This document shows positions 4,697 to 29,053 of a stretch of DNA of 32,511 nt, piece after piece. The notes under the pieces were generated by a model. The model did no database searches. It saw nothing but the letters and a program-made list of their open reading frames with translations, and had not been told where the DNA came from. This stretch comes from Verrucomicrobia bacterium ADurb.Bin118. GTDB lineage: Bacteria; Verrucomicrobiota; Verrucomicrobiia; Limisphaerales; MWDV01. The stretch covers positions 1-32,511 of the forward strand of contig MWDV01000068.1 of NCBI GenBank assembly GCA_002070715.1, written 5' to 3'. The first letter of the stretch is position 1. The number at the start of each line of letters is the position of its first letter. The position numbers were made by a program, and so were the translations under genes.

Positions 4697-6169
4697 ATGA
4701 CTTCTCCAGCGGCTTCTCCTCCTCCGCGCCGGCAATTTTACCGAAACTGGCTGACCCTCACCGGGCTGGTCGTGATGGTGGCCAGCTTGTTTGCGTTTCT
4801 GTTGTTGTTCGTCATGGATTCGCTGGCGCGCGGCTCGAATCCGTATATCGGCGTGCTGACCTACTTGGTGGCGCCGATTTTCACCACGATGGGCCTGGTC
4901 TTGGTGGCCGTGGGCTTGTGGCTGGCCCGGCGCAAGCTCATCCGCTCGCCACAGGGCCGGCCGGGATCGTTGGTGATTGATCTGGCGCGTCCCCGGGACC
5001 GGCGGTTGTTGGGGGGGTTCATTTTGGCGAGTGTGGTGTTCTTGTTGATCACCGCCATCGGCAGCTATCACAGCTATCACTTTACAGAATCCGTGACCTT
5101 CTGCGGGGAGGCCTGCCACACCGTGATGGAGCCGGAAAAGGTCCGCTACGAACATTCGGTCCATGCCCGGGTGTCGTGCGCCGAATGTCACATCGGCCCG
5201 GGGGCCTCGTGGTTTGTGCGTTCCAAATTGTCCGGGTTGTACCAGGTGTACGCGGCCGCCGCCAACAAGTATCCCCGCCCGGTCCCCACGCCCATTCGCA
5301 ATTTGCGCCCGGCGCAGGATACCTGCGAGCAATGTCACTGGCCGCAGAAGTTTTCCGGCAACATCGTCAAAACCTACCGCCATTTTTTGAGCGACGAGGA
5401 GAACACCGAGTATTCCGTGCGGTTGTTGCTGCGGGTGGGCGGCGGCGATCCGCAACGCCACCACGAGGGCGGGATTCACTGGCACATCAACAACCATGTC
5501 GAATACGTCGCCGCCGACGACAAACGCTTGAAAATTCCCTGGGTGCGGTACCGGGATGAGCGGGGCGAACTGGTGGAATACCGTGCGAAAGATTTCACCA
5601 ATGACCTCGCGGGAATGGAAATCCGCAAGATGGATTGCATGGATTGCCACAACCGGCCCTCGCACCGTTACGAGACGCCCAACGAGGCGGTGGACCTGGC
5701 GCTGGCGAACGGGCGGCTGGATCGCACGTTGCCGTCCATTCGCGCCAAGGCCACGGAGTTGCTGGTGCAAAAGTATCCCACCGTCCAAGCCGCGCTGGAC
5801 CAGATTGAGAAGGAACTGCAAGCCGCCTATCCCGATGATGCGCGCACCCGGACGGCGGTGGCCGCCGTGCAGGAAATCTACCGGCAGAATTTTTTCCCGC
5901 TGATGAACGCCGACTGGCGGGCGTATCCCGAGCATATCGGCCACAAGGATTGGCCCGGCTGTTTCCGGTGTCACGACGATCAACACCTCTCCGCGGACGG
6001 CACCCGGAAAATCACCTTCACCGACTGCAATACCTGCCATGTGATTCTGGCCCAGGGCACCGAAGCGGAACTGGAAAATCTCAGCGGCGCCGGCCAGCCG
6101 TTCAAGCATCCCGAAGACGAATATGACCCCGCCTATCTCTGTAATGACTGTCACGACGGCGGACCTTGA
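4697..6169 (+). CDS. NapC/NirT-family heptaheme inner-membrane cytochrome c, ImcH-like
   Basis: A 490-residue quinol-dehydrogenase-type cytochrome. Three hydrophobic helices (about residues 19-41, 50-76 and 104-124) anchor it in the inner membrane, and the rest faces the periplasm. The heme motifs are CGEACH (C136, CX3CH), then CAECH (161), CEQCH (210), CMDCH (314), CFRCH (422), CNTCH (444) and CNDCH (482), seven in all. The FCGEACHTVM context after the last helix is the NapC/NirT quinol-site heme. Seven hemes, about 500 residues and N-terminal helices match Geobacter ImcH, which passes electrons from menaquinol to periplasmic carriers in metal reduction. The stop lies 6 bases before the next gene, so the two are almost certainly co-transcribed. 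Alternative: another NapC/NirT-type reductase partner. Confidence 0.87.
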   Translation: MTSPAASPPPRRQFYRNWLTLTGLVVMVASLFAFLLLFVMDSLARGSNPYIGVLTYLVAPIFTTMGLVLVAVGLWLARRKLIRSPQGRPGSLVIDLARPRDRRLLGGFILASVVFLLITAIGSYHSYHFTESVTFCGEACHTVMEPEKVRYEHSVHARVSCAECHIGPGASWFVRSKLSGLYQVYAAAANKYPRPVPTPIRNLRPAQDTCEQCHWPQKFSGNIVKTYRHFLSDEENTEYSVRLLLRVGGGDPQRHHEGGIHWHINNHVEYVAADDKRLKIPWVRYRDERGELVEYRAKDFTNDLAGMEIRKMDCMDCHNRPSHRYETPNEAVDLALANGRLDRTLPSIRAKATELLVQKYPTVQAALDQIEKELQAAYPDDARTRTAVAAVQEIYRQNFFPLMNADWRAYPEHIGHKDWPGCFRCHDDQHLSADGTRKITFTDCNTCHVILAQGTEAELENLSGAGQPFKHPEDEYDPAYLCNDCHDGGP

Positions 6170-6175
6170 GGCGCT

Positions 6176-8347
6176 GTGAATCTCCCCGCTATTTCTTTTC
6201 CCAATCGGCGCCGGGGGGTGTCCGCCGTGCTGGCGTTGTTCGTGGCGGCGGGCATTGCGGCGGTGAACGCCGAACCGTTGCCCAACTCCCACTGCTGGGA
6301 TTGTCACGAAGACGATACCCTCACCAAGACCGACGCGCAGGGCCGGGAAATCTCCGTGTTCGTGGACGCCGGCTTGTTGTCGAATTCCGTCCACCGCGCC
6401 GTGCTGTGCGTGAATTGTCACGCCGACATCACGGACAAACACCCGGATGACGATGTCCCGGCCAAGCCCGCGACTTGCGTCGGCTGTCACGAGAGCCAGG
6501 CGAATCACGAACAGGCCCAGCGCGAATACCTGCGCAGCATCCACGGCTCCAGCCACACCCAGGGGGCGGCGGCGGCGGCCACGTGCGCCAGTTGCCACGG
6601 CAGTCACGCCATTTTGTCTTCCCGGCATCCCGGCTCGCCCGTGTTCAAATTGAACCTCGCCCGCACCTGCGCGCAGTGTCACACCAATCCAGCGCTGGCG
6701 GCGAAGTTTCACATCAAATATCCCGAGGTTGCGGCGCAGTATCAGGACAGTATTCATGGCCGCAAGCTGGCGCAGGGCTTGATTGTTGCTCCAAGTTGCA
6801 GCGATTGCCATGGCGTGCATGACATCGCCCGCGCGACGATCCCCACTTCTCCGATTGCCCCGGAAAATGTGGCCAAGACCTGCGGTCAATGTCATTTCGG
6901 CGTGGAACAAACCTACGCCGCGAGCGTTCACGGCCAACTGGCGGCCCAGGGGCATGCCGACGCCCCGGTGTGTACCACCTGCCATTCCGCGCACGAAATT
7001 GAATTGCCCGCCTCCGGCCATTTCAAGGCCACGAGCGATCAGAAATGCGGCCAGTGCCATGAAGACCGGCTCGTTCACTACCGCGATACTTACCACGGCA
7101 AGGCCATGGCTTTGGGCCGCCCGAACGTCGCGCCCGACGTGGCGGCGTGCTACGACTGCCACGGCCACCACGACGTGTATCCTCCGTCCGATCCGCGTTC
7201 CCGGCTTTCCTCCACCAATATCCTGGCCACCTGCCAGAAATGCCATCCCGATGCCACCGCAGGTTTCACCCAATACAAACCGCACGCCAACCCGTTGGAT
7301 CGGGCCAATTATCCGCTGTTGCACGCCGTCTTTGTCGGGATGACGGCGCTTGTGGTCGGGGTGTTTGCCTTCTTTGGTTTGCACACCCTGGCCTGGCTGG
7401 TCCGGGCCATTTACCTATACCTCAACGATTCCAAAACCTTCCGCGAAGCCAAAATCGAGATTCAGGAGGATGACGAGTGGTTCTCGCGCTTTGCGCCGTT
7501 TGACCGGTTCCTGCATTTCCTCGTGGTGACCAGTTTCCTGCTGCTGGTCATCACGGGAATGCCGCTCAAGTTTTACTATACGAATTGGGCGAAGGTGATG
7601 TTCGACGTGATCGGCGGCCCCGATACGGCGCGGGTGCTGCACCGGTTTGGCGCGATCGTGACGTTCCTTTACTTTGGCTTGCATCTGATTGCGCTGGCCG
7701 GCAAGGCGTGGCGGGGACGGAAAGCGGTGCGGGATCCAGTCACGGGCCGGTTTCAGATGCGGCGGTTGTGGGGGGTGCTGTTTGGCCCTGATTCCATGGT
7801 GCCGACCCTGCAGGATTGGCGTGATTTTGTGGCTCATAACAAGTGGTTTTTCGGCAAGGGACCCAAGCCGCAGTTCGACCGCTGGACGTATTGGGAAAAG
7901 TTCGATTACTTCGCCGTTTTCTGGGGCGTGTTCATCATTGGCGCCTCCGGGGTGATCATGTGGTTCCCCGCCTGGTTCACTCAATTCCTACCCGGCTGGA
8001 TCATCAACGTGGCGTTGATCGTTCACTCGGACGAGGCGCTGCTGGCCGCCGGCTTCATTTTTTCCATCCACTTTTTCAATACCCATTTCCGCATTGAGAA
8101 GTTCCCCATGGACACCGTGATTTTTTCCGGGCGCGTCTCGAAGGCGGAATTGTTGCACGAACGCAAACGCTGGCACGACCGGTTGGTCGCCGAGGGGCGG
8201 TTGGACCAGCACCGCGTGAAGGACGAGTGGGAACGGTGGAAATCCATCGCCCGCACGTTTGGCTATCTGTTTTTCGGTCTCGGTGTGTTTTTGTTGGTGC
8301 TGATCATCTACGCAATGGTGCGGCGCTTGACGCATGGAGGCGTCTGA
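6176..8347 (+). CDS. 11-heme cytochrome c fused to b-type membrane cytochrome, CbcL-like
   Basis: A 723-residue protein starting at GTG. After a signal peptide (to about residue 32), eleven CXXCH motifs lie between residues 40 and 357, with repeated SIHG/SVHG and GVHD/GHHD histidines that probably serve as distal ligands. A membrane domain follows with about six helices (near 382-412, 444-468, 488-510, 578-600, 607-637 and 692-716). His447, 489, 503, 617, 632 and 637 are candidate b-heme ligands, as in HydB/cytochrome b561-type subunits. A c-domain followed by a b-domain is the layout of Geobacter CbcL, a quinol oxidase used with low-potential metal acceptors; CbcL has nine c-hemes, so this one is larger. 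It is probably an inner-membrane quinol:periplasm electron exit. The next gene is a paralogue. Confidence 0.85.
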   Translation: MNLPAISFPNRRRGVSAVLALFVAAGIAAVNAEPLPNSHCWDCHEDDTLTKTDAQGREISVFVDAGLLSNSVHRAVLCVNCHADITDKHPDDDVPAKPATCVGCHESQANHEQAQREYLRSIHGSSHTQGAAAAATCASCHGSHAILSSRHPGSPVFKLNLARTCAQCHTNPALAAKFHIKYPEVAAQYQDSIHGRKLAQGLIVAPSCSDCHGVHDIARATIPTSPIAPENVAKTCGQCHFGVEQTYAASVHGQLAAQGHADAPVCTTCHSAHEIELPASGHFKATSDQKCGQCHEDRLVHYRDTYHGKAMALGRPNVAPDVAACYDCHGHHDVYPPSDPRSRLSSTNILATCQKCHPDATAGFTQYKPHANPLDRANYPLLHAVFVGMTALVVGVFAFFGLHTLAWLVRAIYLYLNDSKTFREAKIEIQEDDEWFSRFAPFDRFLHFLVVTSFLLLVITGMPLKFYYTNWAKVMFDVIGGPDTARVLHRFGAIVTFLYFGLHLIALAGKAWRGRKAVRDPVTGRFQMRRLWGVLFGPDSMVPTLQDWRDFVAHNKWFFGKGPKPQFDRWTYWEKFDYFAVFWGVFIIGASGVIMWFPAWFTQFLPGWIINVALIVHSDEALLAAGFIFSIHFFNTHFRIEKFPMDTVIFSGRVSKAELLHERKRWHDRLVAEGRLDQHRVKDEWERWKSIARTFGYLFFGLGVFLLVLIIYAMVRRLTHGGV

Positions 8348-8375
8348 CCGGCGGACGCGGCCGGGCGGTGGATTT

Positions 8376-10157
8376 ATGAATGGAAAGGCCATTGGTGCCT
8401 GTTGGTTGTTGGGTGTGGTGTTGACGGTGGCGGCGGCCCCGGAAATTAAAAACAGCCATTGCCTGGATTGCCACGAGGACGAGACGTTGACGAAGACCGA
8501 CGCCTCCGGGCGGGAAGTCTCGGTTTTTGTGGACGCCGCCAAGCTGGCAGCGTCGGTCCACCGGACGAATACCTGCGTGAGCTGTCATACGGACGTGACC
8601 GAGGCACATCCGGATGACGATGTCCCGGCCAAGCCGGTGAATTGCAGCGCCTGCCATGAGCGGCAGTCGGCCAGTTACGGTGCCAGCGTGCATGGCCGGG
8701 CACTGGCGGCTGGCGTCGCCGGCGCCGCCACCTGCCAGGATTGCCACGGCGCCCATGAAGTCGTGTCGCCCAAGTTCGCAGCTTCGCCCCTGCACGTTAC
8801 CCGTCAGGCGGAGATGTGCGGTGAATGCCACGCGCAAGCGGCGGAAGATTATGCCGCGAGCGTTCACGGCCGTGCGCTGGCGGCCGGCGTGCGCGACGCG
8901 CCCACCTGCACGGACTGCCATTACGAACATCAGATTGCCTCGTTCACCGGCTCGCAGCCCCAGACGATTTCCGAGGAGGTCTGCAGCCGGTGTCACGCGT
9001 CGGAACGGTTGAATACCCGTTACAATCTGCCGCGGGACCGCGTCAAAACGTTCTTTGAGAGTTACCACGGATTGGCCGCGCAATACGGCTCGACCGTGGC
9101 CGCCAATTGCGGGAGCTGCCACGGGTATCACAAGATTCTGCCGTCCAGCGACCCCGATTCGATGATTCATCCCACCCATCTGGTGGAGACCTGCGGCAAC
9201 TGTCATCCGGGCGCCACGGAGCGTTTTGTCACCGGCAAGATTCACGTGGATCTGACGTCGGCCACGCGCGGCGAGGATTGGGGGAGCGCCATCAACTGGT
9301 GGGTGCGGCGCATTTATTTGCTGCTGATCGTGGGCGTGATCGGCGCGATGTTCACGCATAACCTGCTATTGCTGGTCAAAAAGGTGAAGGCCCATCTCAG
9401 CTCCGCCGGGCGGCCGATTCTGCGGATGAACGCCTCCCAACGCTGGCAACATGCGGTGCTCGCCCTCAGTTTCATCGTGCTGGCGGTCACCGGTTTTGCC
9501 CTGCGCTTTCCCGATTCGTGGGTGGCGCGTCTGCTGGGGTCGAGCGAGCCGTTCCGGCGCTGGACGCATCGCGTCGCCGGCGTCGTGCTCCTGGCGGTTG
9601 GGTTGTATCATATCGTCTACATCTTGGCCACCCGGGAGGGGCGGCGGCTGATCAAAGATTTTCTGCCCACCCGCCAGGACCTGGCCGATGTGGTCGGCGC
9701 GTTGAAGTATCTCGTCGGATTCAGTGCCACCAAACCCCGGATTGGCCGGTTCGGCTACGCGGAGAAAATGGAGTACTGGGCCGTGGTCTGGGGCACGATC
9801 ATCATGGGCACCACCGGTTTGATGATCTGGTTCAAGATGGATGTGACCGTTTGGCTGCCGCGATGGGCGGTGGACGTGGCTTTGACCATTCACTACTACG
9901 AGGCCATCCTTGCGTGTCTGGCCATCGTCGTCTGGCATTTCTATCACGTCATGTTTGATCCGGATGTTTATCCGTTGAATCTCGCGTGCTGGGATGGCCG
10001 GGTGAGTGAACACTGGCATGCGGAGGAACATCCTTTGGAAACACCGCAACACGAGACTGCCGGGAAGCAACCGGTTGCGCCAACGGCCCCCGCCTCCGAG
10101 GCTGCTCCGTCTTCTTCATCCAGTTCCGACGACAAAAATCTAAAAACCGGCGGGTGA
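8376..10157 (+). CDS. Nonaheme cytochrome c fused to b-type membrane cytochrome, CbcL-like
   Basis: A 593-residue paralogue of the preceding gene. The ATG at 8376 is chosen because a signal peptide (MNGKAIGACWLLGVVLTVAAA) starts there; the upstream ATG at 8334 overlaps the previous gene and adds only charged residues. Nine CXXCH motifs (about residues 29-277) are followed by four or five helices with histidines in RWQHAV, WTHRVAG, LYHIVYI, TIHYYE and VWHFYHVMF, suited to bind b-hemes. With nine c-hemes plus a b-type membrane domain it is closer in layout to Geobacter CbcL than its larger neighbour. The first about 70 mature residues (three heme motifs, including HPDDDVPAKP) are nearly the same in both, so they arose by duplication. 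The Ser-rich C-terminal tail is unusual. Confidence 0.85.
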   Translation: MNGKAIGACWLLGVVLTVAAAPEIKNSHCLDCHEDETLTKTDASGREVSVFVDAAKLAASVHRTNTCVSCHTDVTEAHPDDDVPAKPVNCSACHERQSASYGASVHGRALAAGVAGAATCQDCHGAHEVVSPKFAASPLHVTRQAEMCGECHAQAAEDYAASVHGRALAAGVRDAPTCTDCHYEHQIASFTGSQPQTISEEVCSRCHASERLNTRYNLPRDRVKTFFESYHGLAAQYGSTVAANCGSCHGYHKILPSSDPDSMIHPTHLVETCGNCHPGATERFVTGKIHVDLTSATRGEDWGSAINWWVRRIYLLLIVGVIGAMFTHNLLLLVKKVKAHLSSAGRPILRMNASQRWQHAVLALSFIVLAVTGFALRFPDSWVARLLGSSEPFRRWTHRVAGVVLLAVGLYHIVYILATREGRRLIKDFLPTRQDLADVVGALKYLVGFSATKPRIGRFGYAEKMEYWAVVWGTIIMGTTGLMIWFKMDVTVWLPRWAVDVALTIHYYEAILACLAIVVWHFYHVMFDPDVYPLNLACWDGRVSEHWHAEEHPLETPQHETAGKQPVAPTAPASEAAPSSSSSSDDKNLKTGG

Positions 10158-10510: not shown

Positions 10511-12709
10511 ATGAACTATCGTATCTTCAGATCACGCACCATCGCGGCCCTGACGGGGACGCTGTTAATGACGTTGTTGCCCTTCGTCGCTTCGGCGCAG
10601 CCCGGTCAGATTGGTACCCGGGCGCTCACCCCACAGGACATTAAGGATTATGGCCTGCCGGCGGATACCCAAGTTTCCGGTGGGTTGTCCACTGTGGGGG
10701 TGGGGCAGCCCGCCTATCTGGAGGCGCAGGTCCTCGCCACCCTGGGCGACGCCGACATCCTGGGCGTCACTTGGGAATTGGTGGCCAAGCCGATCGGGTC
10801 CAGCGCTACGCTTGCGCCCAGTCCGCTCTTGGCCAACATGCCGGTTTACAATCGGGGCGACCGCGAATTTTTCAAGGTGGCCTCGCGTCGGTTGCTGCGT
10901 CCGGACGTGCCGGGGCAGTACCGGGTTCAGGCCACCGTGGCGACCAATGGAGGTCAATTCGTGTTGTCGCGCGAGATCACCGGCGGCACCTATCTGGGCA
11001 AGGACATTTGCCAGTACTGCCACAGCGGCGGTTATCTGCCGGATATGTTGACGCCCTGGTCCCGGACCCGGCACGCCCGGGCTTTGACCAACGCCCTGGA
11101 CGGCTATTACGGCGGCCATTTCAACCAGAATTGCATCAAGTGCCACTCGGTGGGTTACGACACACATGTCGCCGCGACCAACGACGGGTTTGACGATGTG
11201 CAGGCCCAAACCGGCTGGACCTTTCCCGCCACGTTGACCCCGGGGAATTATCAGGCGATGCCCGAAGCCCTGCGCAACAAGGCCAATGTCCAGTGCGAAA
11301 GCTGCCACGGTCCGGGCAGCGAACACGCCTTCGCGCTTGGCAATCCCGAGCGCATCTCCGTCAGCTTCAGTGCGGGTGATTGCGCGCAATGTCACGATTC
11401 CAAACCGTATTACGCCAAGGGCGCCGAGTGGGCGAATTCCGGTCATGCGGTGGCCACGCGTACGCCCACGGGCGCCTCCCGCGCCAGTTGCGTGCGGTGC
11501 CATGCGGCGATGGCGTTTGTGGATCACCTGGATGGCAAACCGCAAAACGAATTGCGCACGGCTTACGAGGCCATCACCTGCGCCGCCTGTCATGATCCAC
11601 ACGGACCGGAAAACCCGTCCATGCTCCGCACCGTGGCGCCGGTGACGCTCGTGGATGGCACCACCGTCACCAACGCGGGCAAGGGCGCGCTGTGCATGAA
11701 TTGCCACCAGAGTCATTACAACGCGGCCACGTATGTGGAAACGGCCGCCGGCGGTCCTTACTTTGGTCCGCATCATGGCCCGCAAGCGGACATGCTCTCC
11801 GGCGTCAGCGGATATACCTATGGAAAGGAGATTCCCAGTTCCGCGCACCGCGAGGTGGTGGCCGATTCCTGTGTGACCTGTCATTTGCAAGAAGTTGAGC
11901 CCGCGCATCCAGCCTTCGGCAACGTGGGCGGGCATACCTTCCGGGTGGGTTGGGATGGCGGAACGCCCGGCGACAAATCCGACGACGTGGCACTCACCGG
12001 CGCTTGTGTGCAATGTCACGGCAATATCACGTCTTTCAACCTCAAACGCGTGGACTACGATGGCAACGGCGTGGTGGAAGGCGTGCAAACCGAGGTGAAA
12101 AATTTGCTCGATCAGTTGGGGCGCCTGTTGCCGCCGCTGGGGTCTCCCACGGTCACCGTCACCGCCGGTTATACCCGCCAACAGTTGCGGGCCGCTTTTA
12201 ATCACATGTTTGTGAGCGAGGACGGCAGTTATGGCGTCCACAACGTCAGCTACGCGGTGGGCCTCCTCAAGGCTTCCATCGCCGATCTGACCGGGGATGG
12301 GAACAACGACGGTTTGGCCGATGCTTGGCAGATTCAATACTTCGGGTCCGTCACGCATCCGGATGCCGCGCCCAACGCAACGCCGGCGGGAGACGGGATT
12401 CCGAACTGGCTGAAGTTTGCGCTGGGGTTGAATCCCACCGTCCCGGGCTTGGTGCTGCCCGACGGTGTGATCTGGGCGAATGGCACCCCCGGCACGGGCG
12501 GCTCCGACCAGATTCAAATCTTCACCGCCGCCGAGATCGTGTTCCACACCGAAATCGGCAAGAACTATCAATTGCAATCCATCTCCTCATTGGGTGGGGG
12601 CTGGCAAAACATCGGCGCCCCGGTGACGGGCACCGGCGAGGCTTATAGTTTTGTGACCCCGACCCGTAATCATCCTCAGCAGTTTTACCGGGTGGTCAGT
12701 ACTCCGTAG
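10511..12709 (+). CDS. Secreted nonaheme cytochrome c with Ig-like and C-terminal Verrucomicrobia-type domains
   Basis: A 732-residue exported protein. It has a signal peptide to about residue 29, then an Ig/PKD-like domain at about 55-155 (WELVAKPIGSSATL ... PDVPGQYRVQATV). Nine heme motifs follow: CQYCH, CIKCH, CESCH, CAQCH, CVRCH, CAACH, CMNCH, CVTCH and CVQCH. After these comes a segment rich in Asp/Asn (GDGNNDGLADAW ... GDGIPNW), like calcium-binding repeats common before terminal domains in Verrucomicrobia, and then a final domain ending QQFYRVV. The spacing of the first hemes (CHSVGYD, CHGPGSEH, CHDPHGPE) resembles cytochrome c554/octaheme families. Built-in adhesive domains suggest a surface location, as the terminal or receiving end of the EET path; the acceptor is unknown. 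A strong hairpin follows the gene. Confidence 0.85.
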   Translation: MNYRIFRSRTIAALTGTLLMTLLPFVASAQPGQIGTRALTPQDIKDYGLPADTQVSGGLSTVGVGQPAYLEAQVLATLGDADILGVTWELVAKPIGSSATLAPSPLLANMPVYNRGDREFFKVASRRLLRPDVPGQYRVQATVATNGGQFVLSREITGGTYLGKDICQYCHSGGYLPDMLTPWSRTRHARALTNALDGYYGGHFNQNCIKCHSVGYDTHVAATNDGFDDVQAQTGWTFPATLTPGNYQAMPEALRNKANVQCESCHGPGSEHAFALGNPERISVSFSAGDCAQCHDSKPYYAKGAEWANSGHAVATRTPTGASRASCVRCHAAMAFVDHLDGKPQNELRTAYEAITCAACHDPHGPENPSMLRTVAPVTLVDGTTVTNAGKGALCMNCHQSHYNAATYVETAAGGPYFGPHHGPQADMLSGVSGYTYGKEIPSSAHREVVADSCVTCHLQEVEPAHPAFGNVGGHTFRVGWDGGTPGDKSDDVALTGACVQCHGNITSFNLKRVDYDGNGVVEGVQTEVKNLLDQLGRLLPPLGSPTVTVTAGYTRQQLRAAFNHMFVSEDGSYGVHNVSYAVGLLKASIADLTGDGNNDGLADAWQIQYFGSVTHPDAAPNATPAGDGIPNWLKFALGLNPTVPGLVLPDGVIWANGTPGTGGSDQIQIFTAAEIVFHTEIGKNYQLQSISSLGGGWQNIGAPVTGTGEAYSFVTPTRNHPQQFYRVVSTP

Positions 12710-12746
12710 CGGAATTTGTCGCCTGCTCCGGGGCTTCGCCCGCACA

Positions 12747-12777
12747 AACCCCTCCGCGCTTCCGGCGTGGAGGGGTT
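12747..12777 (+). terminator. Hairpin terminator between convergent genes
   Basis: The arms AACCCCTCCGCGC and GCGTGGAGGGGTT pair over about 13 base pairs, with one G-T pair and a short TTCC loop, followed by a T-rich GTTGTTGTTG. It sits 37 bases after the nonaheme cytochrome stop and before the end of the reverse-strand gene at 12882, so it can end either transcript. Confidence 0.7.
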
Positions 12778-12881
12778 GTTGTTGAATGGGGTAATGCGGT
12801 GATTTTTGAGGGTCGGCAATGGGGAGACCGTTGGTGTTGCCGGGTTGGCGGATGTGGGCAAGAGCGAACGGGGTTGCGCGC

Positions 12882-13793
12882 TCAATCGCGTTTCAGATGG
12901 TCCAGAGCTTCCACTTGCGCTTGAAGGCGCCGGGCATTTTCCCCCAGCCATTCCGTGTGCCGCGCGCGGATTTGCTGCAGTTCCTGTAAGCCCGCTTGGC
13001 GGGCCGCCTCGTCGCCCGCGGCTTCTGCCTTCTTGATGCGTTCTTGGACAACCTGCAATTCTTTCTGCATGGCGGCGACGGCGGTTTCGAAGGCCTTCCG
13101 CCCGTCCTCGCGCAGGCGGTCGCGCGCTTCCTCCAAAGACAGCGACGCTAGGTTGGGTAATGCCCGTTGCACGGCTTCACGGGCGGCGGCCGCCTCGGCT
13201 TCCGTGTCCGTCGCAGGCGGGAGCGTGGATGGTTGCGTCAACCGGTCCAGCGCCCGGGCCAGATCAAATTCCAGTGCGGCTTCCCATTCGGGACGCAGGT
13301 GAGACAGCGCCTCGCGACGCGTCTCCGCCAGCAAGGCAACGCCCAGATAAAACGGTTCGTCTCGGTCCAGATTTTGCGGGCGAATCCCGTCCGCTCCGGC
13401 ACTTTGTGCGGCTTCCGCCGACCATTCCTCGCGGCGGACGACGGTGATTTTGCCGCGCCCCGCTTGCTCGAAGGCCGTCAACAAACTGCCGATCCGCACC
13501 GCAAAATCCCGCAGGGTGTCAGATGGAGGTTTATCGTTGAACAAGGCGTAGAACCGAATTTCCACCGGGACTGGTAAATTGGTGATTTGCCGGATGGTGC
13601 TTTCGGCTAATCCAAGATTATGGGCGGGTGCCATCCCCGGCGGCTGGCGGAGGGCCGTTTGATGGCGCTGCCAGAAAACGCCCGCCACAAAGCCGGCGAC
13701 CACCAAGGCACCCAAGACAATCAGTGGCACCCGTCCGCGGGCATGGGGGTTGCGCTGGGGCAATCCCGCCTGTTTTGGCAACCGTTCTTCCAT
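12882..13793 (-). CDS. Membrane-anchored GldG-like protein with C-terminal coiled coil
   Basis: A product of about 303 residues with one transmembrane helix near its N-terminus (VPLIVLGALVVAGFVAGVFW), a basic stretch before it, and the rest presumably periplasmic. Residues about 80-165 (PVEIRFYALFNDKPPSDTL ... RIGSLLTAFEQAGRGKITV ... GIRPQNL ... FYLGVALL) resemble the extracytoplasmic domain of GldG-type ABC transporter components, though shorter and without the usual transporter partners nearby. The last about 110 residues are Ala/Glu/Arg/Gln-rich and predicted coiled coil. The start is uncertain: ATG at 13793 is used, and a TTG at 13829 is possible. It lies in reverse orientation between the two cytochrome clusters, so it is probably not part of the electron-transfer operon. 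Function unknown. Confidence 0.65.
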   Translation of the reverse strand: MEERLPKQAGLPQRNPHARGRVPLIVLGALVVAGFVAGVFWQRHQTALRQPPGMAPAHNLGLAESTIRQITNLPVPVEIRFYALFNDKPPSDTLRDFAVRIGSLLTAFEQAGRGKITVVRREEWSAEAAQSAGADGIRPQNLDRDEPFYLGVALLAETRREALSHLRPEWEAALEFDLARALDRLTQPSTLPPATDTEAEAAAAREAVQRALPNLASLSLEEARDRLREDGRKAFETAVAAMQKELQVVQERIKKAEAAGDEAARQAGLQELQQIRARHTEWLGENARRLQAQVEALDHLKRD

Positions 13794-14049
13794 GGCCTCA
13801 TAAACTGTCGGGTGCCGGCCGGAAAGCAAGTGTTCCGAAAACCGCTCTCCATCACGCGGGCCGCAGACGTCCGGCGCGGAGGCTTGGGGCAGGGCAGGAC
13901 GGAAGAAATCTGGCTGTCGAACTGCCCGGAGTCCCCTTCGGACGCCGGCTTATGGATTGCCTTCTCTCGCGGGGGACAATCAAAGGTAAGAATCTGACAA
14001 TTAACGGATAGTCCCCATTTTGCGTTGCGCGTTAGTTTGCCTTCCAGCT

Positions 14050-15726
14050 ATGGCCACACGTTTTACGTTTTTGCACCGCTATTGGCGCGTCTGCAACTCG
14101 CTGTGTTCTCCTCGTGTCCGGTCGGTTTTTTCTCAATCTGTGGCCATCCGGATGGCCGTCGCCGCTGTTGGGCTGGGCGGGAGTTGTTTGGCCCTGGCCC
14201 AGGAAGTGCCGCATTGGAGTATTCCCCAAGCCGGAGGGATGCCGGGGTTGCCGGTGATGACCGGCTTGGAACAACGTACCAATGGCGTGCGGGTTACGTG
14301 GGACGGGCCGCCGGGCTATTACCACGTCTTCCAGCGCACCAACGTCCACAGCGGCTCGTGGCAGGCGGTGACTGGACCGTTACTGACGCGGAATGCAACG
14401 TTGCCCGTTGGGCTGGACAACGCTTTTTTCCGGGTGGCCGGTCCAGCCCCGCGATATGCCGGGGCGCAGGCTTGTGCGGAATGCCATGAACCGATGCATC
14501 ACCTGACCGCCCACACGGGGCATGCGCACGCCTTGGATACCCTCAAGCGAATTGGTCAGGATAAAAATCCCGCCTGTCTCCCGTGTCACACGGTGGGTTA
14601 CGGATTGCCGACCGGGTTTATCAGTGAAACCGCGACGCCGCATCTGGCCGGAGTACAGTGCGAAAATTGCCACGGCCCGGCGGCCAACCACGCGGCGAAT
14701 GAGTTGGATCGGGCTGCCCGCCCGCGCGCCGAACTGGCTGCGCAAGTGTGCGGTGGTTGTCACACCGACTCGCACCAACCCACTTGGGAGGAATGGAAAT
14801 CCAGCCGTCACGCGGTGGTGACCGAGGACTTGAATCCGCCCGGACGCATCAACAGTTGCGGGCGATGTCATTCGGGTTCGGTGCGGCTGGCCTTGGGGAA
14901 GGGGCGGGATCCCGCGGTCGCCGTGACCAATGACGCGAACGTGCCGATCACTTGCGCCGTCTGCCACGACCCGCACGGGCGCCATGTCTGGACCAATGTG
15001 CTCACCGGCACCGTCACCACCAATCAACTGCGCCATCCGGTGGCTTCCACGAATCAATACGCGATGGGAACGGGCGGTGACTTTACCGCCCAATACAATC
15101 CGGACATCAACCTGTGCGCCCAGTGTCACAACGATCACGGCGCAACATGGTCGGGCAATGCCCGGGCGCCGCATCATTCTCCGCAGTACAACATGTTGTT
15201 GGGTACTGCGGGGGTGTTGGATGCCGGGTTCACCCCCCGAGCGGCCACTCACGCCCTGCAAATCGGGAAACAATGCGTCGGCTGTCACATGCCCACGGCG
15301 CCCTATCAGAGCGAGGACCAGCCTGCGATGACCGGTCATTCTTTCAAAGTGGAGTCGTTCGCGTCCTGCCGCGATTGTCATGTGTTCCCGGAATTGTCCA
15401 CGCCGTTTGCCATGATGTCGGTGGCCAACCAGATCGGGCAGCTCAAGGACGCGCTGGATTTGTGGGCGACCACCCGGGCGCCGGACACCTTGCGGACCAA
15501 ATACGGTCCGCGCGCCTGGGAATACAGTATCCCGGGGGATCTGTCGCCCGGAGGCGAGGGCCCGACCAGTGTGGAACAAGCCCAAATCCCGGAGGCCATC
15601 CGGAAAGCGCGCTTCAATTTGTATCTCGTCAAATACGACGGCAGCTATGGCACGCATAACCCGCGGCACACAATCAATCTGCTGGAGCAGGCGCGGATAT
15701 GGATTCAAGCGGAGTTGAACCCATGA
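14050..15726 (+). CDS. Secreted nonaheme cytochrome c with N-terminal Verrucomicrobia-type domain
   Basis: A protein of about 558 residues. The export signal is the hydrophobic stretch AVAAVGLGGSCLALA; ATG 14050 gives a long n-region, ATG 14152 a short one, and both are possible. A small domain follows (GYYHVFQRTNVHSGSWQAVT ... NAFFRVAGP), the same kind found at the C-terminus of the cytochrome at 10511. Nine heme motifs are CAECH, CLPCH, CENCH, CGGCH, CGRCH, CAVCH, CAQCH, CVGCH and CRDCH. Their order and context (CHTVGYG, CHGPAANH, CHDPHGRH, and YDGSYGTHN near the end) parallel the 10511 protein, so the two are homologues with the accessory domain at opposite ends. It probably works outside or at the outer membrane with the porin complex encoded just downstream. 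Confidence 0.83.
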   Translation: MATRFTFLHRYWRVCNSLCSPRVRSVFSQSVAIRMAVAAVGLGGSCLALAQEVPHWSIPQAGGMPGLPVMTGLEQRTNGVRVTWDGPPGYYHVFQRTNVHSGSWQAVTGPLLTRNATLPVGLDNAFFRVAGPAPRYAGAQACAECHEPMHHLTAHTGHAHALDTLKRIGQDKNPACLPCHTVGYGLPTGFISETATPHLAGVQCENCHGPAANHAANELDRAARPRAELAAQVCGGCHTDSHQPTWEEWKSSRHAVVTEDLNPPGRINSCGRCHSGSVRLALGKGRDPAVAVTNDANVPITCAVCHDPHGRHVWTNVLTGTVTTNQLRHPVASTNQYAMGTGGDFTAQYNPDINLCAQCHNDHGATWSGNARAPHHSPQYNMLLGTAGVLDAGFTPRAATHALQIGKQCVGCHMPTAPYQSEDQPAMTGHSFKVESFASCRDCHVFPELSTPFAMMSVANQIGQLKDALDLWATTRAPDTLRTKYGPRAWEYSIPGDLSPGGEGPTSVEQAQIPEAIRKARFNLYLVKYDGSYGTHNPRHTINLLEQARIWIQAELNP

Positions 15727-15812: not shown

Positions 15813-16655
15813 ATGAAACTCAATTTTGAGGGGTTGAAACGTCCGCCCGCGGTGGTGGCGCTGGCCGGAATCGCAGCGCTGGTTTTCACCGCGATTTCCT
15901 GCCGCACCGTCAATCGCCACGCCGTGTTGTTGCCGCGGGTGCCCGGCGCGGAATATGTCGGCTCGAAAGAATGCGAGCAGTGCCACGAGGAGATTTGCCG
16001 GGATTTCGTCACGGCTGATCATGCGCGGCTGATCGCCGAAGGGCCGCGGGCGCTTCCCGCCGGGTGCGAATCCTGCCACGGCCCGGGCAGCGCCCATTCG
16101 GAATCGGGCGGCGAAATCCTGCCGCCGTACAGTTTCACCGCGGGCCGTCCGCCCGCGAGTGGGCGGGGCCTGCGTTTGGCGGCGCCGCCCGCGCGGGCCA
16201 CGGAAACGGTTTGCTATGAGTGTCACGCGAACGTGCGCGGCCAGTTTAATCTGCCCCACCACCATCCCGTGCCCGAGGGGGAGATGACCTGTTGGGAATG
16301 TCATCCCCCGCACCAAGGCCGGGCGCGAGCCGGCGGCAGCACGCTTTTGCGTTCGGAAAACGAAACCTGTTTGCAATGCCATCCCGCCCAGCGCGGTCCG
16401 TTTGTGTTCGAGCACGAGGCGATGCGCGAAGGTTGCACCACCTGCCATCAACCGCACGGGACCATCCAGGCGAAGATGTTGACCGTGCGCGACGCGAATT
16501 TGTGTTTGAAATGTCACTTCCAACAGGTCCGCGGCGGGGCTGTCTGGATCGGCGGCTCGGATCACACCGCGCGATTGCGCCAGGGCACTTGTTGGACCGC
16601 AGGCTGCCATGAAGCCGTGCATGGTTCGCGGGTTAGTTCATCGCTCCGCTTCTGA
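15813..16655 (+). CDS. MtrA/DmsE-like octaheme c-type cytochrome, probable lipoprotein
   Basis: A 280-residue protein with an N-terminal export signal ending in TAISC, a plausible though imperfect lipobox (Cys about 30). The heme motifs are CEQCH, CESCH, CYECH, CWECH, CLQCH, CTTCH and CLKCH, plus a final CX4CH motif, CWTAGCH, followed by EAVHGS; eight hemes in all. The CESCHGPGSAH, CHQPHG and CHxxVHGS signatures match the DmsE/MtrA family of periplasmic cytochromes that insert into an outer-membrane barrel. MtrA itself has ten hemes, so this is a shorter relative, like the eight-heme proteins of Geobacter conduits. The beta-barrel gene starts 17 bases downstream, the expected porin-cytochrome pairing. 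It likely conducts electrons through the outer membrane. Confidence 0.87.
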   Translation: MKLNFEGLKRPPAVVALAGIAALVFTAISCRTVNRHAVLLPRVPGAEYVGSKECEQCHEEICRDFVTADHARLIAEGPRALPAGCESCHGPGSAHSESGGEILPPYSFTAGRPPASGRGLRLAAPPARATETVCYECHANVRGQFNLPHHHPVPEGEMTCWECHPPHQGRARAGGSTLLRSENETCLQCHPAQRGPFVFEHEAMREGCTTCHQPHGTIQAKMLTVRDANLCLKCHFQQVRGGAVWIGGSDHTARLRQGTCWTAGCHEAVHGSRVSSSLRF

Positions 16656-21473: not shown

Positions 21474-24428
21474 CTAATCTACCGTCAAGCCCCGGCGCGC
21501 GGCGACCACCTGGCCCAGTGCGATCCCGCCGTCGTTCGGCGGCACGCGTTGATGCCAGTAGGGTTGAAAGCCTTCCGCCCGCAACCGGGTCACGGTGTGC
21601 TCCGTCAGATACCGGTTCTGAAAACAACCGCCGGAAAGGACCACGCGAGCCTGCGTCACGTGCCGGGCCACTGCGACAATGGTTTCCGCCAGCGTGTTAT
21701 GGAACCGGGCGGAAATGACGCCCACCGCAACGCCCGCTGTCACATCGGCGAGCAGGGCTTCCACCATCGGTCCCCAATCCACCCGCACGGGGATCACGCC
21801 GGTTTCGGATTGGCCGCCCGGTTGGGGGGATAACTGGATCGGATACGCTTCCGTCGTGTCCACGCCGTCCAAGGCGAACTCCAGTTCCATGGCCGCCTGT
21901 CCCTCAAACCGGGCCGCGTGTCGCAGGTTGACCAGCGAAGCAACGGCATCGAACAACCGTCCCACACTGGAACAGAGCGGCGAGTTGATGCCGCGCTGCA
22001 GCATGGCGCGCAGCGTATTCAACTCCGCCTCCGAAAACACTCCGACCAGACTGGAGAGCGTAATTGGGCCCTGCCCTTGCCCCAGCTCATGGAGCAGGCC
22101 GAGCGCCGCGCGTCGGGGTTCTTTCACAGCGGCGTCGCCACTGGTCAGGGGGAAAGGACGAAAATGGGCGACCCGCTCCACGGCGTGTTCGGTGAGGAGA
22201 AAAAATTCGCCTCCCCAAATTGTCCCGTCCAAGCCGTAACCGGTGCCATCCCAAGCCACGCCCAGCAGCGGCGGGGACTGTTCGTTTTCAGCCATGCAGG
22301 CGAGGACATGGGCGACATGGTGCTGGACATGTCGCAAACCCGGGCGCGGCTGGGGCGGGGGACTGGCGGCGGATGAATTTTGAACCGTCGCCCTGGCCAT
22401 CGCTTGCGCGTATCGGGTGGAGAGATAATCCGGATGCCGGTCGGCCACCAGCACGGTAGGCGTGGCGGCGTAGAGTTGTTGGAAATCGGCGAGCACGCGG
22501 CGGAAGGCGGCGTTGGCTGGTTCTGTCTCCAGATCGCCGATGTGCTGGCTGAGAAATACCTTGGGGCCTACCGCCAGGGCGACGGTGTTTTTCAAATGCG
22601 CGCCGACGGCCAGAACGGTTTCCGTTTGTGGACCCCGGTTTGCGGATTCCAAAGTGACGGGCAACGGCGCATAACCCCGGGTGCGCCGCAGCACCATTTC
22701 CCGGTCCAACAGCACGCGGGCAATCGAATCATCCACCTGCCGCGCGATGGGCCGGTTGTGCACCAAGAACAAATCGGCAATATCCCGCAACCGCTCAAAC
22801 GCTTCGTTTTCGTCAGTGCAAATCGGTTCATCGCTCAAGTTGCCGCTGGTCGCCACCACCGGAAAACCGAGTTCAGCGAGCAAGAGATGATGCAACGGCG
22901 TGTAAGGCAACATCACTCCCAGTTGGGGATTTCCCGGGGCAATGTTGGCAGCTAGGGGCGATTCTTGCGCCAGCTCCGTCGCAGCGCATTCCTGTTCCGG
23001 AGAGGGTTGCTGCGCCGATAATTCATCCAGTGTCCCCGAAATTTTTCGGCGGCGCAAGAGAACAATGGGAGCTTCCGGAGCGCACAGCAGCCGGGCTTCC
23101 GCCGCCGATACTTCGCAAATCTGTTTCACGCTCTCCAGCGAAGGAAACATGAGAGCCAGTGCTTTCTCCTCGCGATGTTTGCGTTCGCGCAGCCGCTGGA
23201 TGGCGTCCTCGTTGCGGGCGTCCACCATGAAGTGAAATCCACCCAGGCCTTTGACGGCGACAATCTGACCAGCCCGAATGGCGGCGGCGGTCGCGAGCAA
23301 TGCGTCGTGGCCGCGTTCGAGAACGCGGGATGCCAACGACCCAGCGTCGTCGGCTTCCCTCGCGGGGGTGCGGCCGCGCCAGAGTTCCAGTTGCGGCCCG
23401 CAGGCGGGGCAGGCGTTGGGTTGGGCGTGGAAGCGGCGGTTGGTCGGGTCGTCGTATTCCGCGCGACAAGCCGGGCACATAGTGAATCCGGCCATCGTCG
23501 TATTGACGCGATCGTAGGGGAGCGCGGTGAGAATGCTGAATCGCGGGCCGCAGTGGGTGCAATTGGTGAACGGATAGCGGTAGCGACGGTTCGTGGGATC
23601 GAAGATTTCGCGTCGGCATTCCGGACAGGTGGCAATGTCGGGCAGGATCAGCGCGGTCTTGTCGCCGCCGGGAGTGCTGGGGCGGATTTCGAATCCGGTA
23701 TAACCGGCCGGATCAAGCCAGGAACTTTCCAGACTTTGGATGAAACTGTGCGGCGGTCGTTCCGCTTCGAGCCGCAGCAGAAACGATTGCAAAACCGTGT
23801 CCGCCCCCTCGACTTCGATCGTTACGCCTTGCGCCGAGTTGTTGACCCAGCCGGCGAGGGCTAGTTCCGTGGCGAGGCGATGTACGAACGGACGGAAACC
23901 GACGCCTTGCACCGCGCCGCGCACATTCAGGCGCAGCCGCGCGGTGGGTTTTTGGTCCGCTTTGCTGGAGGGCATTTGTCCGTCGGCGGCGAGACGGCGG
24001 ATCATCTTCAATGCCTGCGCCAAACCTTCTTGGGCGAGCGGTGACAACTCCTCCCCAAAACCGAGTTCGGCAATGGGGATCGTCAACCACCACGCGGCGG
24101 GGGTGTGCCCAAAGACATCCCGGGCCAGCGCGAGCATGGTCCGTGGATCGGCGGCGTGAGCCAGGATCTGTGCGGAGGGCGCCGCGGTCAGGGGGCGGAG
24201 TTGCACCTCACGCGGCGCATCCACGGCGGCGTCCACAAAAACCACGCGGCGTGCCTGCGCAATCGGCGCGGCGATTTCCGGCGTGAGTTGCGGACAGGCC
24301 AGCGGTTGGACGCCCGGCAAATTCTCCGTCGCCAGCGCTTCAACCACTTTCGGGCCCACGCCGTCGTCGCGGCGCAGCGTGTTGCCGTAGCCGATGACGA
24401 GCAACTCAATGACGGGTTGCGTGGACAT
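21474..24428 (-). CDS. hypF: Fusion of [NiFe]-hydrogenase maturation protease (HycI/HoxW type) with carbamoyltransferase HypF
   Basis: A 984-residue fusion. Residues 1-145 are a hydrogenase maturation protease: GYGNTLRRDDGVGPKVVE (Asp21/22, nickel-sensing) and FVDAAVD. Residues about 163-250 are the acylphosphatase domain (RGAVQGVGFRPFVHRLA). Two zinc fingers follow, C268-X2-C271-X18-C290-X2-C293 and C318-X2-C321-X18-C340-X2-C343, then a YrdC-like domain (from about 375, VKGLGGFHFMVDA) and a Kae1/TobZ-like carbamoyltransferase domain (HHVAHVLACMAE, DGTGYGLDG, LSGGCFQNRYL). HypF makes the thiocarboxamide precursor of the active-site cyanides; the protease trims the large subunit after nickel insertion. 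It is the last gene of the hox operon, 108 bases after hoxH. HypF alone is usually about 750-800 residues, so the extra 160 are the protease. No stop or frame break lies at the joint. Confidence 0.94.
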   Translation of the reverse strand: MSTQPVIELLVIGYGNTLRRDDGVGPKVVEALATENLPGVQPLACPQLTPEIAAPIAQARRVVFVDAAVDAPREVQLRPLTAAPSAQILAHAADPRTMLALARDVFGHTPAAWWLTIPIAELGFGEELSPLAQEGLAQALKMIRRLAADGQMPSSKADQKPTARLRLNVRGAVQGVGFRPFVHRLATELALAGWVNNSAQGVTIEVEGADTVLQSFLLRLEAERPPHSFIQSLESSWLDPAGYTGFEIRPSTPGGDKTALILPDIATCPECRREIFDPTNRRYRYPFTNCTHCGPRFSILTALPYDRVNTTMAGFTMCPACRAEYDDPTNRRFHAQPNACPACGPQLELWRGRTPAREADDAGSLASRVLERGHDALLATAAAIRAGQIVAVKGLGGFHFMVDARNEDAIQRLRERKHREEKALALMFPSLESVKQICEVSAAEARLLCAPEAPIVLLRRRKISGTLDELSAQQPSPEQECAATELAQESPLAANIAPGNPQLGVMLPYTPLHHLLLAELGFPVVATSGNLSDEPICTDENEAFERLRDIADLFLVHNRPIARQVDDSIARVLLDREMVLRRTRGYAPLPVTLESANRGPQTETVLAVGAHLKNTVALAVGPKVFLSQHIGDLETEPANAAFRRVLADFQQLYAATPTVLVADRHPDYLSTRYAQAMARATVQNSSAASPPPQPRPGLRHVQHHVAHVLACMAENEQSPPLLGVAWDGTGYGLDGTIWGGEFFLLTEHAVERVAHFRPFPLTSGDAAVKEPRRAALGLLHELGQGQGPITLSSLVGVFSEAELNTLRAMLQRGINSPLCSSVGRLFDAVASLVNLRHAARFEGQAAMELEFALDGVDTTEAYPIQLSPQPGGQSETGVIPVRVDWGPMVEALLADVTAGVAVGVISARFHNTLAETIVAVARHVTQARVVLSGGCFQNRYLTEHTVTRLRAEGFQPYWHQRVPPNDGGIALGQVVAARRGLTVD

Positions 24429-24536
24429 GATCTGCCAAATTGTGGCGGAAGAGGATGCCGTCGGCAGGACAAAAAGTCAGCGGGGAAACCGCGTTCGGCG
24501 TTTCCCTGCGGCAAAGAGCGCGCTCCCGGAGGGGAT

Positions 24537-25967
24537 TCAACCGCGTGCCGCCTCGCGGATCACCGTTCCGTCGGGACCGATGAGTTGCACGCGCAGCGGC
24601 ATCTGCCCCACCGCGTGCGTGGAGCAACTGAGGCAGGGATCATAACACCGGATGCCGTGTTCGATCCGGTTGAGCAGGGGTTCCGGAATGTCGTTTTGCT
24701 GGCGGCGGATGTAATGCCGCGCAATCTGCGCCACCGTCTGGTTCATGGCCAAGTTGTTCTGGCCGGTGGCAACGATCATGTTCACCTTGCGCAACAGGCC
24801 GTTCCGATCCACGGTGTAATCGTGGAACAGCGTCCCGCGCGGCGCTTCGCTGACGCCGACCCCGTGAAAACTGTTGATCCCGGCGTCGGCCCGCAGGTCT
24901 TCGCTGAAAATATCCCGATCGTCCATGTACCGCTCGACCCGTTCCAGCGCCGCCAGGATTTCAATGAGCCGCGCGTAATGGTAGAGGAAGGAGGAAGTGA
25001 CCGCGCCGCGTCCGAGTTTCTTGAATCGCGCCAGTTCGGCATCGGCTTTGGGGGTGCCCATTTGTTCGGCGACATTGAGCCGCGCGAGCGGGCCGACGCG
25101 ATACATGCCCTCGGGCAGATCCAGCGGCAGGTAATAAGGCGACTTGAGGTAGGACGTGTTTTGTACCGATTCACCGATGAACTCGGCGTAGTTCTGCGGA
25201 TCCAACTGGTCGGCGATGATGCTACCGCTGCTATCCACGAAACGCAGTTTGCCGCCGTGATGTTCCCAGGTGCCGTCCGGATCCACCAGCCCCATGAACA
25301 GCGACGGGAAATTCCCGAAGACCTGGACCTCGCGGCTGTGTGTTTGGAGTGTGGCTTGGAAGAGGTCAAACGCCGTTTGCACCGTCGCGTAAGCCTCGGG
25401 CAACCACCGCAAAATGCGTTCGCGATCCTCCGGGTCCAGCGGACTGCGAACCCCGCCGGGCACGGCCCAGGCCGGATGGATTTTCTGGCCGCCAAGAAGC
25501 TCGATGATCTCCTGGCCGAACTGCCGCAGGCGGATGCCGGCGCGGGCCAGTTCCTTGTTTTGGCCGATAAGGCCGAAGACATTGCGCTGAGGTTGCGGGG
25601 TGTCCCAGCCCAGCAGGAAATCCGGCGCACTGAGATGAAAGAAACTCAGGGCGTGGCTCTGGATAAACTGGCCCAGGTTCATCAGCCGGCGGAGTTTGTC
25701 CGCCGCCGGCGGGATGCTGACGGCCATGATGGCGTCGCCGGCCTTGGCGGACGCCAGCAAATGGCTCACCGGACAGATGCCGCAGATCCGCGGCGTGATG
25801 CCGGGCATTTCATTGTAGGGACGGCCCTCGCAGAATTTTTCAAAGCCGCGAAACTCCACGACATGGAACTCGGCGTCGGAGACGTGGCCTTCATCGTCGA
25901 GAAAGATGCTGATCTTGGCGTGCCCTTCGATGCGGGTCACGGGATCAATGAGGATGCGTTTTGCCAT
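24537..25967 (-). CDS. hoxH: [NiFe]-hydrogenase large subunit HoxH (group 3d)
   Basis: A 476-residue catalytic subunit holding the NiFe(CN)2CO centre of a cytosolic bidirectional hydrogenase. The L1 motif is [10 protein letters not shown] (C62, C65) and the L2 motif [10 protein letters not shown] (C445, C448, H451); all four nickel cysteines are present. The N-terminus ([12 protein letters not shown]) is typical. A tail of 25 residues follows H451, the expected cleavage site, so the protein needs an endoprotease; one is encoded next in the operon, fused to HypF. The HoxEFUYH neighbours place it in group 3d, which couples H2 oxidation or production to NAD(H). A lone group 3b or F420-type enzyme is unlikely because of the HoxE/F/U partners. 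Confidence 0.95.
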
Positions 25968-26044
25968 GATTCGTATTGCGTGTGGCGGAGGCGGTCAGCG
26001 CCGGGATGGCGCGGCGCCCCGCCGGGACGCCTGCTGCGTTCGCT

Positions 26045-26593
26045 TCATCCAAATTTCAAGTCCGCGCCTTCCAGTTTTGGGGTCTCCCCCGCCAGGACCT
26101 GGAGCATGAGGGTTTTGATCCGGCTCGCCGGGGGCGGGCATCCCGGCAGAAAATAATCCACCTCCACCGCTTCATGCACCGGCATCACCCGCGCCAGCAA
26201 CTCGGGCACGATGCCGGGCGCCTTGGGGATGCCGGGATTATGCCGGGCATGCTCGATGTAGGCGTGTTGCAGCACGCTCTCCGCGTTGTCCAGGCCCAGT
26301 TGATTGCGGATGGCCGGCACGTTGGCGGTGACCGCGCAATCGCCGAAGGCGACCAGGACCTTGGTGCGGGCGCGGATTTTGCGCGCCAGTTCCAGGTTGT
26401 CCTCGTTGCAAACAGCGCCCTCGATGAGGCAGACATCCACGTTTTCGGGATACTCCTTCATGTCCACGACGGGGCTGTAAACCAGCTCGATTTGGTCGGC
26501 GAGCTCGAGCAGGAACTCGTCGAGATCGAGAAACGACATGTGGCAACCGGCGCAGCCGCCGAGCCAGACCGTGGCAACTTTTAGGCGATCCAT
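26045..26593 (-). CDS. hoxY: [NiFe]-hydrogenase small subunit HoxY
   Basis: A 182-residue short small subunit carrying one [4Fe-4S] cluster next to the NiFe site. The proximal-cluster cysteines are C14 and C17 (GGCAGCHMS), C86 (FGDCAV) and C152 (LPGCPPP). The ferredoxin-like C-terminal region of membrane-bound hydrogenases is absent and there is no Tat signal, as usual for cytosolic group 3d HoxY. It starts 13 bases inside the end of hoxU and is followed 77 bases later by hoxH, so it is part of the same operon. It links the diaphorase module (HoxEFU) to HoxH. Confidence 0.95.
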   Translation of the reverse strand: MDRLKVATVWLGGCAGCHMSFLDLDEFLLELADQIELVYSPVVDMKEYPENVDVCLIEGAVCNEDNLELARKIRARTKVLVAFGDCAVTANVPAIRNQLGLDNAESVLQHAYIEHARHNPGIPKAPGIVPELLARVMPVHEAVEVDYFLPGCPPPASRIKTLMLQVLAGETPKLEGADLKFG

Positions 26594-27297: not shown

Positions 27298-27410
27298 GGC
27301 TCACTTGAAAACGCGGTTCAAAATCCGGGCCCTTTTTTCCGCCGGAAGGATCAGCGCGAAAACCGGCGCGCCGGGGGGGATGGTTAAAATTGTGGTGCGC
27401 AGGTCCGGCT

Positions 27411-29051: not shown

Positions 29052-29053
29052 GG

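Follow-up and report, generated by a model that had tools for sequence, protein, structure and literature searches.

Two Nonaheme Cytochromes at One Locus

Contig MWDV01000068.1 (assembly GCA_002070715.1) of Verrucomicrobia bacterium ADurb.Bin118, analyzed here as a window of 32,511 nucleotides, carries two genes for nonaheme cytochromes, hereafter NON1 and NON2, which lie near the genes of an MtrA-type cytochrome and a putative outer membrane barrel (Table 1). Both are real, intact genes. Their products resemble the external terminals of electrical wires that cross the outer membrane, and the small fibronectin-like domain that they carry in place of a lipid-anchor signal suggests a different way of attaching the wire to the cell surface. 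The host is a soil or water bacterium of the Verrucomicrobiota with a 3.8 Mb draft genome that is 81% complete, and the closest named genomes are metagenome-assembled genomes of the Limisphaerales/Pedosphaera (Verrucomicrobia subdivision 3).

An earlier note on this DNA had described nine hemes in matching contexts in the two proteins, and this proved correct. Each contains nine collinear CXXCH motifs, and BLASTP aligns the entire heme region (residues 161–587 of NON1 with 136–546 of NON2; 28% identity, 94.7 bits). Outside the heme motifs, eight histidines are invariant among 18 NON1 and 21 NON2 homologues and correspond one-to-one between the families, namely residues 188, 272, 312, 364, 421, 446, 475 and 577 in NON1, and 158, 214, 254, 309, 375, 401, 430 and 536 in NON2. 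Full-length NON1 orthologues (41–46% identity) occur in about 10 verrucomicrobial genomes from other classes or orders, and NON2 orthologues (42–61% identity) across numerous families of the order to which the window belongs. A duplication within the genome as the origin of the pair was ruled out by the tree, in which each groups in a clade of its own and their relatives come from different phyla.

Identity of the Heme Core and Its Predicted Ligands

The best match in the PDB, for both family profiles as well as for both single proteins (E 4.9e-11 for NON1 and 4.1e-16 for NON2), is 6i5b, which we take to be OcwA of Thermincola potens. This assignment agrees with the His-His positions of the entry, which are shifted by a uniform 29 residues relative to the published numbering; the pockets concerned are HH281/282 at heme 2 and HH380/381 at heme 5 (PMC6703420). 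The profile alignment spans both pockets as well as the GxHN/DGSxGxHN motif of the C-terminal helices, where the invariant H577 of NON1 and H536 of NON2 align with the GSNGVHN of OcwA, and NrfA, ONR and MccA are also among the profile matches. These alignments place the cores in the NrfA superfamily, nearest to OcwA and not to MtrC/OmcA. They share with OcwA the nine hemes, the collinear motifs, the C-terminal helical region with its distal histidine and, to judge by sequence, the heme-5 His-His pocket and, in many homologues, that of heme 2; OcwA differs in being a Gram-positive cell-surface protein that has no porin and lacks an FN3/FYR domain.

The earlier note had compared the two proteins with OmcA and MtrC, a comparison that holds for the operon position discussed below but fails for the fold. 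Shewanella MtrC is a decaheme lipoprotein of a fold other than the OcwA/NrfA type. Membership of NON1 and NON2 in that family was ruled out, since they have nine hemes rather than ten, no lipobox, no match to TIGR03507, and no MtrC/OmcA chain at E 0.01 in the profile searches of the PDB. The MtrC-like Pfam profile PF22113 does score above its cut-off, yet it also matches the b561-multiheme proteins of the window.

Read against OcwA, one of the eight invariant histidines would belong to the heme-5 pocket, leaving seven for seven low-spin hemes; the predicted pattern is that of seven bis-His hemes, with hemes 2 and 5 open. In both families the first histidine of the heme-5 pocket is invariant and the second mostly retained. 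Heme 9 is among the seven predicted to be bis-His, via the invariant His446 of NON1 and His401 of NON2, because OcwA has a methionine at heme 9 (His/Met) and no counterpart of this histidine.

Terminal Domains

The earlier note placed an Asp-rich linker and an FYR domain at the C-terminus of NON1 and an FYR domain at the N-terminus of NON2, and took models with unrelated folds or disorder as what would speak against it. The terminal segments were modeled by themselves with AlphaFold2 (AF2; residues 590–732 of NON1 and 50–140 of NON2), and both are folded. The C-terminal beta domain of NON1 (about residues 667–732) has a mean predicted local distance difference test score (pLDDT) of 80.7, its strands following two short helices; residues 66–134 or so of NON2 form five strands with a mean of 80.8 and about 90 in the core. 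Nearly all top Foldseek matches of the NON2 domain in the PDB are FN3 domains (probability up to 1.00, template modeling score about 0.5–0.6, E 0.0065 or worse), and the modeled domain has the FN3 fold, a beta-sandwich of seven strands, of which five are assigned here. For the NON1 domain the Foldseek matches are weak and poor; they include the My5 domain of myomesin, which is itself an FN3 domain.

Profile-profile comparison (hhalign) matched the NON1 C-terminus with the generic FYR profile at 98% and the NON2 N-terminus at 94%, the direct comparison of the two giving 42% and column-shuffled controls at most 0.3%. When the host genome was searched separately with each profile, 17 of the 25 non-self matches of the NON2 profile coincided with matches of the NON1 profile, about 0.1 being the number estimated by chance. 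On these profile comparisons, the two beta domains are related via a common FYR pool, so that both placements of the earlier note stand. The linker of NON1 corresponds to TSP3 (PF18884, TSP3_bac) in 13 of 24 family members and is degenerate in the window protein. The FYR domain itself is covered by no Pfam or NCBIfam model; further copies lie on contigs of the host genome (G000), for example L116–L143, and the domain may deserve a family of its own.

Two further suggestions of the earlier note fared less well. An Ig/PKD-like N-terminus of NON1 is plausible but unproven: PKD appears below the cut-off in two distant homologues (E 9e-4 and 3e-3), and Pfam gives no match for the window protein or for any of its 17 homologues. 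Residues 81–126 of the DUF3160 protein encoded at position 873, which was said to carry the same small domain, match FYR weakly (E 0.003, host genome). No BLAST match to this protein was found within about 20 kb of nonaheme loci in other genomes; the link is weak and says nothing about function, and a shared role was dropped, since the neighbourhood is not conserved. In one NON1 homologue (L069:14-2155, genome G114), which has neither a convincing FYR segment nor a lipobox, a Trp-rich C-terminal extension (..WIYSDWFGWYSP..) replaces the TSP3/FYR segment and is perhaps another surface domain.

Lipid Anchors and the FYR/FN3 Domain

The earlier note had suggested that such domains may anchor the hemes to the surface or matrix instead of a lipid, an idea for which the comparison of homologues gives partial and unexpected support. 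Neither NON1 nor NON2 of the window has a lipobox. Among 129 nonaheme homologues from Verrucomicrobiota, Planctomycetota, Armatimonadota and Eisenbacteria, some of them near-identical duplicate entries, a pattern-based scan of the N-termini found no lipobox in 100 of the 102 proteins that bear the FYR/FN3 domain, and a lipobox in 22 of the 27 that lack it. The five proteins with neither comprise two with a QGC variant, two cut at contig ends and one with another N-terminal domain; of the two domain-bearing proteins with an apparent lipobox, L114 continues into a clear signal peptidase I (SPI) site and L147 is ambiguous. A domain that substitutes for the lipid anchor should produce just such a near-exclusion. 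In a tree built by a quick method the contrast recurs three times, between NON1 and Eisenbacteria, between the main NON2 clade and Armatimonadota, and in L194 and L207 of the Verrucomicrobiota, which are nested with Planctomycetota. NON1 forms a single clade, and the FN3-bearing NON2 proteins require two changes, which are forced by supported branches. Regarding export, SprA of type IX secretion gave no match in 20 relatives, a search in which the control likewise matched nowhere, and secretins were found in 20 of 20.

The Conduit Operon and Its Neighbourhood

NON2 is followed by the MtrA-type cytochrome, whose lipobox Cys30 is invariant (17/17), and by the putative barrel, for which Pfam matches are weak (Porin_O_P at 4e-4 in 3 of 17 sequences, MtrB_PioB, PF11854, at E 0.1 in one). 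This gene order recurs in most loci of the window's order; in named genomes, genes of the MtrA and putative MtrB type lie directly downstream of 28 verrucomicrobial NON2 genes, mostly less than 100 bp apart, compared with 0 among 30 from other phyla. The upstream genes for NapC-like and b561-multiheme cytochromes recur in these loci as well. With a multiheme cytochrome of the MtrA family beside a barrel gene in a conserved operon, the locus agrees in this respect with porin-cytochrome conduits of the MtrAB type. NON2 occupies the slot of MtrC in the MtrCAB system of Shewanella, as the first gene ahead of the MtrA homologue and the barrel; the lipidation is reversed, however, since here the MtrA homologue (15813-16655, +) has the lipobox and the outer cytochrome does not, whereas in Shewanella the outer cytochrome MtrC is the lipoprotein.

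The conduit itself was already known, since He et al. (2017) reported verrucomicrobial clusters of a large porin and an 8-heme cytochrome, sometimes with an extracellular multiheme cytochrome, and called them non-homologous to known conduits (PMC5615132). These clusters are very likely the same system. What is added here is the tie of the 8-heme protein to MtrA by profile search, the OcwA-type identity of the outer cytochrome and the description of the terminal domains.

Other verrucomicrobial classes have a different arrangement downstream of NON1, with a barrel of about 460 residues and a lipoprotein cytochrome with 12–22 hemes, which apparently make up a second type of conduit. The lipoprotein has 18–22 hemes in L063:11343-14140, L067:14464-17552 and L070:9300-12040, and 12 in L062 and L068. 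A search of 78 genomes from the window's order, which had no internal positive control, did not turn up the barrel of about 460 residues; therefore, NON1 there probably uses the MtrA-MtrB conduit. The DUF7088 protein, whose gene lies between those of NON1 and NON2 but runs the other way, is also near NON2 in 21 loci of named genomes and in about 10 others. Directly downstream of the conduit and hemE/hemN, HypF and apparent HoxH/Y/U/F/E genes of a bidirectional NiFe hydrogenase (21474-29752, -) were read from translations alone, and hydrogen could be an electron source or sink.

Table 1. Features of the nonaheme and conduit genes in the window.
Feature	Position	Strand	Basis or remark
NON1, nonaheme cytochrome, OcwA/NrfA-type core, 732 amino acids	10511..12709	+	9 CXXCH; 18-homologue profile to OcwA 6i5b, E 2.1e-25
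NON1 signal peptide, SPI type (..FVASA/QPGQ), without lipobox	10511..10597	+	Sequence; lipobox scan
NON1 N-terminal domain, possibly Ig/PKD-like	10613..10984	+	Sub-threshold PKD in two distant homologues; no Pfam match here
NON1 nine heme motifs, residues 167-503	11009..12019	+	
NON1 C-terminal helices with the distal-His motif DGSYGVHN (putative counterpart of the NrfA/OcwA three-helix bundle)	12023..12280	+	Alignment to OcwA
NON1 Asp-rich TSP3-like linker	12287..12445	+	PF18884 in 13/24 family members, degenerate here; two AF2 helices
NON1 C-terminal FYR domain (beta domain, possibly an FN3-like sandwich)	12509..12706	+	AF2; weak Foldseek match; hhalign 98% to generic FYR
NON2, nonaheme cytochrome, OcwA/NrfA-type core, MtrC slot, 558 amino acids	14050..15726	+	9 CXXCH; 21-homologue profile to OcwA 6i5b, E 1.1e-32
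NON2 N-terminal FYR/FN3 domain	14245..14451	+	AF2 core pLDDT about 90; Foldseek FN3; kept in 20 orthologues
NON2 nine heme motifs, residues 142-444	14473..15381	+	
MtrA-type conduit cytochrome, 8 hemes (7 CXXCH + CX4CH), lipobox Cys30	15813..16655	+	Profile to MtrA 6r2q_A, E 1.2e-33
Putative MtrB-like outer membrane barrel, 743 amino acids	16673..18904	+	Invariant C-terminal Phe
Multiheme c + b561 cytochrome (quinone side)	8334..10157	+	Pfam; syntenic in relatives
Multiheme c + b561 cytochrome	6176..8347	+	Pfam; syntenic in relatives
NapC/NirT-type multiheme cytochrome	4697..6169	+	PF03264; syntenic in relatives
GldG-like DUF7088 protein, between NON1 and NON2	12882..13829	-	Pfam, 1.9e-4

Proposed Function and Alternative Explanations

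The homologies, the ligand set, the gene order, the domain folds and the opposition of lipobox and domain stand as results of the analysis. As regards the location of the nonahemes, their retention at the surface and the direction of electron flow, we infer the following scheme. Electrons from quinol would travel via NapC and the b561-multiheme cytochromes to the MtrA homologue, which would be lipid-anchored and seated in the barrel. NON2, in the outer-face slot that MtrC takes in Shewanella, would hand them on to humics, Fe(III), flavins or a partner, and NON1 would serve as a second surface nonaheme on the same conduit. Both may be kept on the surface by docking and/or by the FN3/FYR domain, whose binding partner would be the barrel or else a glycan or protein of the cell surface; the domain is proposed as the holder because the nonahemes lack the lipid anchor that their relatives from other phyla have. 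We consider this scheme, retention by the domain included, reasonably probable. Several observations weigh against it. The His-His pair of the heme-2 pocket is present in part of the family, reads SHQ in the NON2 of the window and is absent from its NON1. The barrel has no detectable homology to MtrB or to any PDB chain in searches with 17 sequences, and about 10 verrucomicrobial NON2 genes with room downstream have no MtrA or MtrB in their locus. Every switch from lipobox to domain is also a switch into the Verrucomicrobiota, so that host biology is confounded with the domain, and the exclusion does not prove anchoring. Finally, FYR is a generic, promiscuous module with about 50 copies in the host genome at E<0.01, and therefore finding it here may not be informative about cytochromes in particular.

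This last point leads to a rather unlikely but serious alternative, in which the conduit is real, the nonahemes are held by docking on MtrA-MtrB, and the domain is a generic stabilizing cap or secretion-related module. The abundance of FYR copies suits such a role, as does their location at 10 residues or fewer from the C-terminus, mostly at the extreme end, in 24 of 28 inspected proteins of many sizes; the NON1 FYR region moreover matches proteins in more than 100 of 289 genomes of the phylum, and the two nonaheme lineages bear the domain at opposite ends. The near-exclusion of lipobox and domain in three separate tree contrasts argues against it. A purely C-terminal sorting signal was rejected as insufficient, since copies at the N-terminus, as in NON2 and possibly in the DUF3160 protein, cannot serve as one. 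That the terminal segments are chance matches, unrelated folds or disorder is very improbable and largely refuted: the Foldseek E-values of these small domains are weak, and the NON1 matches and the direct profile comparison are poor, but both AF2 cores are confident, and the FN3 matches of NON2, the shared genomic matches and the shuffled controls all speak for related folds.

The direction of electron flow may also be questioned. MtrAB-type conduits of known organisms work both ways (PMC6344600; PMC8805035), and the quinone pool might here be fed from outside, by Fe(II), reduced humics or partner cells; we regard this as unlikely, because the terminal nonahemes resemble reductases and the known iron-oxidizing MtoAB/PioAB systems have no outer cytochrome (PMC6344600). 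Slightly less likely still is that the nonahemes are enzymes for soluble substrates (nitrite, hydroxylamine or some other oxyanion) that are supplied across the outer membrane and contribute little to extracellular electron transfer. The profile matches to NrfA, ONR and MccA and the invariant histidine of the heme-5 pocket would agree with such a function, and slow reduction of nitrite as well as activity on hydroxylamine have been reported for OcwA itself (PMC6703420). The nearest match, however, is the surface reductase, the CXXCK catalytic motif is found in neither nonaheme, and a fixed place beside an MtrA-type conduit would be needless for a periplasmic enzyme.

Under the conduit scheme with surface retention that we prefer, the outer position of a Gram-negative conduit would be filled by two unrelated heme folds, with relatives of OcwA fixed in the slot of MtrC, and the verrucomicrobial conduit reported in 2017 gains a defined outer component. 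OcwA is reported to be a surface reductase of a Gram-positive bacterium and to have no relation to MtrC. The opposition of lipobox and FN3/FYR domain makes the anchoring guess directly testable. A broader suggestion, which we offer only tentatively, is that this domain of about 60–70 residues, found in dozens of secreted proteins, may be a general non-lipid surface-attachment or sorting domain in the Verrucomicrobiota, a phylum with poorly known surface biology, and may on several occasions have taken the place of the lipid anchor in OcwA-type nonahemes; here this would leave a lipid on the MtrA homologue and none on the outer terminal cytochrome.

Other Heme-Rich Loci in Relatives

Heme-rich proteins of other architectures were encountered among the relatives. 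Giant tandem nonaheme proteins with 24–34 hemes per chain occur in Phycisphaerae (L201:5060-11305, and also L199, L206, L208 and L209), and an armatimonadotal locus with a NON2-type nonaheme encodes a protein of 717 amino acids with 32 heme motifs (L180:8636-10789).

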